Assembly: GCF_900114655.1 (NCBI RefSeq)
Contig: NZ_FOTT01000004.1
Location: forward strand, 1 to 64,000
Length of the DNA stretch: 64,000 nt
Direction: 5' to 3'
Source of the DNA: Candidatus Frackibacter sp. WG13
GTDB lineage: Bacteria > Bacillota > Halanaerobiia > Halobacteroidales > Acetohalobiaceae
Under the pieces are notes generated by a model. The model did no database searches and had not been told where the DNA came from. It worked only from the letters and a program-made list of their open reading frames with translations. This document shows positions 36,920 to 38,070 of this stretch, piece after piece. Numbering within the stretch: position 1 is the stretch's first letter; the number at the start of each line of letters is the position of its first letter. A program made the position numbers and the translations under genes.

Positions 36920-36953
36920 AAAAAAAGCTATTAACCTTTTCTAAGTTAATAGC
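36920..36953 (-). terminator. Terminator after mazF
   Basis: GCTATTAAC and GTTAATAGC form a stem followed by seven Ts on the minus strand, 20 nt past the toxin stop codon. The following M20 gene starts 32 nt beyond it. Confidence 0.88.
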
Positions 36954-36972
36954 CTCCACCGCATATATCTAA

Positions 36973-37323
36973 TTATAAATCTATTAACCCTACACTAATT
37001 TCTAAAGCTTCATTCACTTCCTGTACTATCTCATCATCTAAATGAGTAATCTGCCGTTGTAACCGTTTCTTATCGATGGTTCTAATCTGTTCTAAAAGAA
37101 TTACTGAATCTCTTTCTAATTTATGTTCATTAGCATCTATTTCTACATGTGTTGGTAACTTAGCCTTATCAATCTTAGAAGTAATTGCTGCTACAATAAC
37201 TGTAGGACTATATTTATTACCAATGTCATTCTGAATCACTAGAACTGGCCTAACGCCACCTTGTTCTGAACCGACTACAGGGTTTAAATCGGCATAGAAC
37301 ACATCTCCTCGTTTAATAGCCAC
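36973..37323 (-). CDS. mazF: MazF/PemK-family endoribonuclease toxin (EndoA-like)
   Basis: A 116-residue toxin that cuts mRNA at short sequences. It has [31 protein letters not shown] in the first 45 residues (core [11 protein letters not shown] and [12 protein letters not shown]) with the conserved arginine, then [18 protein letters not shown] and [12 protein letters not shown]. It resembles Bacillus EndoA closely. The start is GTG, two nt past the antitoxin stop. A terminator follows. It is paired with the RHH antitoxin at 37326. Confidence 0.94.
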
Positions 37324-37325
37324 TG

Positions 37326-37601
37326 TTATTCACACTCCGCTATATTTGTTTCATACTTAAAAAAATCCCTGTTTTCCGTATTAATATTATCTTCTGCCAG
37401 TTCTAAATTAATATTACCCATCTCAAGATAGCCCTGTTTCATCTCTCTTTTTATCTCTTTTTTACGCAACTCAGTAATGTAAAGCTTCATAGCTTCACGA
37501 ATAAATTCACTACGATTCTGATTCTTCTCTTGAACGACCCCATCTACTTCCTCCAATAAATTATCTGGCAAACTAATCATTACCCTCTTTAGATTAGTCA
37601 A
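37326..37601 (-). CDS. Ribbon-helix-helix antitoxin of the MazEF/EndoAI type
   Basis: A 91-residue antitoxin. Residues 1-45 form a ribbon-helix-helix DNA-binding unit ([17 protein letters not shown] and [13 protein letters not shown]). The second half carries [19 protein letters not shown], which matches the toxin-binding region of Bacillus EndoAI (RRGYMEMAKINL, from memory). It begins with TTG, 7 nt after GGAGGTG, and leads the toxin gene. It would neutralise MazF and repress its own promoter. Confidence 0.92.
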
Positions 37602-37639: not shown

Positions 37640-37669
37640 AGTATATGTTACTGACTGTAAGAATGTCAA
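37640..37669 (-). promoter_or_regulatory. Promoter of the antitoxin-toxin operon
   Basis: On the minus strand: TTGACA at 37669-37664, 18-nt spacer, TATACT at 37645-37640. The antitoxin start is 39 nt further on. Confidence 0.82.
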
Positions 37670-37819: not shown

Positions 37820-37990
37820 TTATACTCTTTCATAAGCTTCTTTATCCGCTTTCAAACCTTCTTCAGCTAATTTCAAATTGATCTTCCCCATTTTAAAATA
37901 GCCTTTCTTCATTTTCAGCTTTAAACTGCCTTTACATTCTTCATCTGCATTGTTAACTTCTTTCTTACTTAAAAACTGCTGGTTAGCCAT
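37820..37990 (-). CDS. 56-residue protein resembling only the toxin-binding half of the MazE-type antitoxin
   Basis: A short unrecognised gene reading MANQQFLSKKEVNNADEE and onward to a lysine-rich end. Its core, MKKGYFKMGKINLKLAEEG (residues 27-45), aligns with [19 protein letters not shown] in the antitoxin next door at about 11 of 19 positions. It has no ribbon-helix-helix part. It is a complete transcription unit with a consensus promoter (38070-38041), GAGGTGG 7 nt before the ATG and a terminator. It may bind MazF without DNA, act as an extra antitoxin, or be an unrelated protein with the same helix; the first is my preferred inference. Confidence 0.78.
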   Translation of the reverse strand: MANQQFLSKKEVNNADEECKGSLKLKMKKGYFKMGKINLKLAEEGLKADKEAYERV

Positions 37991-38040
37991 TGGCATCCCA
38001 CCTCATTCAAAATAGTTGAAACAGGACAATACGTAATTTA

Positions 38041-38070
38041 ATTATATCCTATTCTCAACAGACATGTCAA
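38041..38070 (-). promoter_or_regulatory. Promoter of the mini-antitoxin-like gene
   Basis: On the minus strand: TTGACA at 38070-38065, 18-nt spacer, TATAAT at 38046-38041, a full consensus. The ATG at 37990 is about 44 nt after the predicted start. The helicase stop at 38142 is 72 nt upstream. Confidence 0.87.

Follow-up and report, generated by a model that had tools for sequence, protein, structure and literature searches.

Models of type II toxin-antitoxin systems usually place neutralisation of the toxin and repression of the operon in one and the same antitoxin. In B. subtilis, the antitoxin EndoAI (YdcD, a MazE), the partner of the toxin EndoA (MazF; complex in PDB 4me7), carries a ribbon-helix-helix (RHH) domain, and it contacts the toxin with the segment Met64-Glu83 (PMC4041440). 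The MazE of S. aureus is unusually short and binds MazF with its C-terminal segment, residues 23-56, and the mazEF of this bacterium is not autoregulated (PMC4041440). A further relative is AimX of the arbitrium (SPbeta/phi3T) phages (PDB 8anv), an RHH-less MazE-like helix of about 51 residues that is encoded away from mazEF. AimX binds MazF about 5 times tighter than MazE does and displaces MazE, and its M14D mutant loses MazF binding; the crystal complex of AimX is that with phi3T_93, while its complex with MazF was modelled and has binding data in support (PMC10769878).

The initial annotation of the locus described below stated that no DNA-binding-free partner of MazF had been described. 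This was wrong, since Staphylococcus MazE (PMC4041440) and phage AimX (PMC10769878) are such partners. What we did not find described in the open-licence literature is a third gene of such a kind beside mazEF.

The short gene and its relation to MazE

The locus was read in a window, by which we mean the whole stretch of 64,000 nucleotides that was analysed. Its features, from upstream to downstream, are as follows.

38041..38070, minus strand: promoter of the short gene, TTGACA-18-TATAAT, 12/12 consensus matches
37998..38003, minus strand: AGGTGG, ribosome binding site 7 nt upstream of the start codon (ATG at 37990), read from the sequence
37820..37990, minus strand: short stand-alone gene, 56 aa, a MazE-type MazF-binding helix without an RHH domain, as judged by open reading frames, homology and predicted helix
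37762..37793, minus strand: intrinsic terminator of the short gene, GAGACG-loop-CGTCTC-TTTTTT, -15.8 kcal/mol, z -2.3
37640..37669, minus strand: separate mazEF promoter, TTGACA-18-TATACT (promoter scan)
37326..37601, minus strand: mazE, EndoAI type, with intact RHH_1 domain (Pfam, 3.9e-7) and toxin-binding tail (PDB 4me7_E, 1.1e-11)
36973..37323, minus strand: mazF, the sole MazF/PemK toxin of the genome (PF02452, 3e-39; 4me7_A, 2.4e-53)
36923..36957, minus strand: terminator after mazF (terminator scan)

The open reading frame of the short gene, if taken from its first ATG (37996), spans 37820-37996 on the minus strand and has 58 codons. We place the start at the second ATG because the ribosome binding site is well spaced from it, and the Met encoded there is invariant in the alignment of the short-protein family. 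The gene was thus correctly annotated as a stand-alone gene of 56 residues upstream of an antitoxin-toxin pair, and the perfect promoter, ribosome binding site and terminator (a hairpin with its U run) that had been claimed for it are all present. From its stop to the start of mazE there are 218 bp. This gap argues for a separate unit and against a frameshifted mazE, and together with the gene's own promoter and terminator it gives the short gene the appearance of the independent unit that had been proposed. A simple terminator scanner passed over the short-gene terminator, the cause being a limit of the scanner's pattern. An Rfam search over the locus returned no RNA family.

The relation of the short protein to its neighbour is seen in the MazF-binding segment of MazE, where 12 of 19 core positions are identical, the best of 2000 shuffles reaching 10. 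A search of the whole genome with the short protein gave only one other match, the C-terminal half of the neighbouring MazE (E 7.8e-5), and a profile-profile alignment between the short proteins and MazE had a probability of 98.4 (E 9.6e-15), again over the C-terminal half only. The alignment to EndoAI is free of gaps over residues 57-83, a span that includes the published contact segment; by sequence, therefore, the short protein possesses the MazF-binding C-terminal segment of MazE/EndoAI, in agreement with the earlier claim that its core mirrors the toxin-contact region. The RHH half, on the contrary, is gone, as had also been noted: a Pfam search of the short protein found no RHH domain of the MazE/EndoAI kind, nor any other match at E 10, and AlphaFold (ten sequences used) predicts one long helix, residues 6-54, with mean pLDDT 84. 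Such a lone predicted helix says little about its partner.

A homology search had been suggested as a check on the annotation, and profile searches matched all three kinds of relative. Against PDB, a profile of 24 short proteins found 8anv_C (phage AimX, 5.1e-5) and 4me7_E (EndoAI, 3.2e-4) and no further significant chain. The family NF041459, short Staphylococcus MazE, was matched by 20 of the 24 (best 4.3e-10); the protein of the window scored 19.3 bits against it, below the curated cut-off of 108. Four positions are key in AimX: M14, Y18, E20 and M21. In the short family, M14 is M or L in 38/38, Y18 is Y in 38/38 and M21 is M in 32/38; the pair GY is invariant. At the position equivalent to E20 of AimX, 34 of the 38 short proteins have K or Q, while MazE has mostly E.

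The toxin of the window is of the EndoA type by sequence, and the whole genome has one MazF match. The MazF of B. subtilis is specific for UACAU. If a B. subtilis-like specificity is assumed, short coding sequences contain 0 such sites against 1.7 expected, which is not significant, and whole short transcripts are not depleted of them (8 against 5.5 expected).

Distribution, selection and descent in Halanaerobiia

We read 46 mazEF loci in genomes that are at least 90% complete and left out that of G053, whose contig ends too early, so that 45 were readable. Conservation beside mazEF had been set beforehand as a test on which the reading could fail; an open reading frame of 47-65 aa is found upstream of mazE/mazF on the same strand in 39 of these 45 Halanaerobiia loci. 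It is present in all loci of families f1 (5/5), f2 (8/8), f3 (12/12), f4 (2/2), f6 (6/6), f8 (1/1) and f10 (1/1) and in 4/5 of f9, and absent from f5 (0/4) and f7 (0/1), which have mazEF without it. The gene is hence retained across eight family groups, in 38 of the 39 loci alongside mazE, and in most families the gene next upstream is a helicase gene. Two loci, L110 of G005 and L111 of G010, have the short gene together with a MazE whose RHH half seems degenerate.

In a survey of the phylum, where 217 of 299 genomes gave any match at 1e-3, two matches were found in 13 of the 14 members of the class and a second match in none of about 285 genomes outside it, with a sensitivity that is limited for very diverged copies. 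A search of genome contigs with a single sequence found nothing; the profile search succeeded.

The short gene is under purifying selection. In four families its dN/dS has medians of about 0.17-0.27, clearly below 1, though above the 0.03-0.08 of mazF. Of the 38 short sequences, 36 cluster together (support 0.90) in a tree built on the 38-column core, and the two from f4 fall outside this main clade; a single origin is supported but not proven, because the core alignment is short. Downstream of GYxKM the protein has diverged in f3, putatively Halanaerobium, and in two genomes of f9, with the loss of LAEEG, and thus a weaker contact with the toxin or a changed role is possible there.

A promoter with at least 10/12 matches lies before the short gene in 36 of 39 loci, where 3.3 were expected, and 31 of 39 have a terminator behind it, against 0.25 expected, both expectations being taken from a simple block shuffle. 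The stem of the terminator reaches into the final codons of the gene in f3, f6, f8 and part of f9. Little is conserved in the short promoters besides -35, -10 and ribosome binding site, and a search for an operator common to them and the mazE promoters revealed none. An inverted repeat, TATAGAA/TTCTATA, occurs at mazE promoters of f6, with both halves in 4 of 6; upstream of mazE in L107, L113, L115 and L142 it flanks the promoter and is a candidate operator for MazE. It is absent from the short-gene promoters of the same family. This pattern fits, without proving, a constitutive short gene beside an autoregulated mazEF, with the mazE operator itself being putative.

One genome deserves separate mention. 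In G043 (L144, G043:C19), of family f10, the gene before the single mazF encodes a protein of 54 aa that belongs to the short clade. It has a promoter of its own and is the only antitoxin-like gene there, and an RHH-type MazE has no match anywhere in the genome. Provided that this MazF is active, the sole recognisable candidate to hold it is the short protein. The assembly of G043 is a single draft, 95% complete and in 240 contigs, so that a full mazE may lie on a missing contig or an antitoxin of another kind may act there.

A probable second antitoxin and the readings that compete with it

In our opinion, the short gene is likely to be a second, DNA-binding-free antitoxin of the neighbouring MazF, uncoupled from the repression of the mazEF operon. 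We favour this reading because published RHH-less helices bind MazF and because the short family keeps the M/L position, the GY and, mostly, the second M. The original suggestion that the protein could hold MazF in check is accordingly a plausible one. Homology supports it well, and so does G043, in which the short gene appears to stand in for MazE.

For the short protein, we infer MazF binding, neutralisation, constitutive expression and an effect on autoregulation in the following way. The long helix (M/L-x-x-G-Y-x-x-M-x-x-[IL]-N...) would enter the groove that the MazF dimer forms at its interface, the site of the MazE tail, and would thereby block RNA cleavage. The resulting complex would be unable to tether MazF to the mazEF operator, since the RHH domain is missing. 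The gene is probably constitutive, because a near-consensus promoter and a terminator serve it alone and no operator is seen, and neutralising capacity from it would persist when mazEF represses itself. The threshold for MazF activation would then be raised, and the operon may sense a shifted MazE:MazF ratio. The short protein would thus probably hold the toxin back and yet not itself switch off the mazEF genes.

A wider reading, taken as a whole, seems to us evenly balanced between right and wrong: that MazF is controlled class-wide by three genes, where MazE represses and neutralises and a constitutive RHH-less paralogue neutralises only, that restraint and autoregulation are genetically uncoupled, and that the short protein took over fully in at least one lineage. 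Several points speak against the antitoxin reading, namely K or Q at the E20 position, the divergence in f3 and f9, the families f5 and f7 that are without the gene, and the fact that G043 is a single genome.

It is possible, if rather doubtful, that the short protein acts as a competitor or modulator, which binds MazF but was selected for stripping it from the MazE-MazF-DNA repressor and so tuning mazEF transcription, rather than for guarding against toxicity. The displacement of MazE from MazF by AimX, the independent promoter and the company of mazE in nearly all loci agree with such a role. However, G043 keeps the short gene without MazE, and hence has no MazE complex to modulate. This role is compatible with the MazF binding assumed for a second antitoxin, so our confidences in the two do not exclude each other.

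We consider it improbable that the helix was co-opted, at least in Halanaerobium, for a partner other than MazF. The same AimX helix does serve two partners, phi3T_93 being the other, and the consistent K/Q and the divergent C-terminal part in f3 would agree with this; on the contrary, the GY and M/L positions are kept, the linkage to mazE/mazF is strict, and G043 has the gene beside its mazF.

Still less credible is a buffer against phages, where the short antitoxin would soak up phage binders of MazE/AimX, such as phi3T_93, that free MazF, and would so keep MazF in balance during infection. Indeed phi3T_93 binds AimX and MazE via the same helix (PMC10769878), and MazF-binding tails are present on viral contigs, but none of 50,697 phage records matched the short gene.

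Finally, a functionless decaying duplicate of mazE or a chance open reading frame can be dismissed as most improbable: the eroded toxin-contact segment in Halanaerobium and two f9 genomes would suit decay, which is contradicted by purifying selection in four families and opposed by the conserved promoter and terminator and the retention in eight family groups.

If the short gene is a second antitoxin, the neutralising half of MazE was apparently copied into another gene, which most of the class has retained, and this offers a ready test of what autoregulation contributes.

Comparison with described MazF partners

Compared with EndoAI, whose contact segment it matches without gaps, the short protein is without RHH domain, its gene has its own transcription signals, and an EndoAI-type mazE still stands next door. 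The MazE of S. aureus resembles it in being unusually short and in its MazF-binding segment, which is C-terminal there. However, this MazE serves its own mazEF operon as antitoxin and is co-transcribed with the sigB operon, whereas the short gene has an intact mazE nearby, looks monocistronic with promoter and terminator of its own, and is not the sole antitoxin in a mazF operon.

Some MazE of Clostridia likewise consist of a toxin-binding tail without recognisable RHH (50 aa in L090 and L099, 79 aa in L091 and L096; coordinates L090:2986-3138, L099:2581-2733, L091 and L096:2896-3135). Unlike the short gene, these are sole antitoxins directly before mazF. G043 suggests a possible route to RHH-less antitoxins such as that of Staphylococcus, by takeover rather than truncation.

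Matches on viral contigs were AimX-like, or tails on other proteins. The proteins of L182, L183, L184, L186 and L187 end in, or consist of, a MazE-like MazF-binding tail and are possible anti-MazF proteins; some have unrelated N-terminal parts, e.g. of 121-124 aa in L182/L183. No phage record among those searched with the short gene gave a phage-encoded or arbitrium-linked copy of it, and these results speak neither for nor decisively against its descent from a phage gene that was domesticated. AimX is a phage gene under arbitrium control, while the short gene is chromosomal and in class-wide synteny with mazEF; it would be the chromosomal counterpart of AimX.
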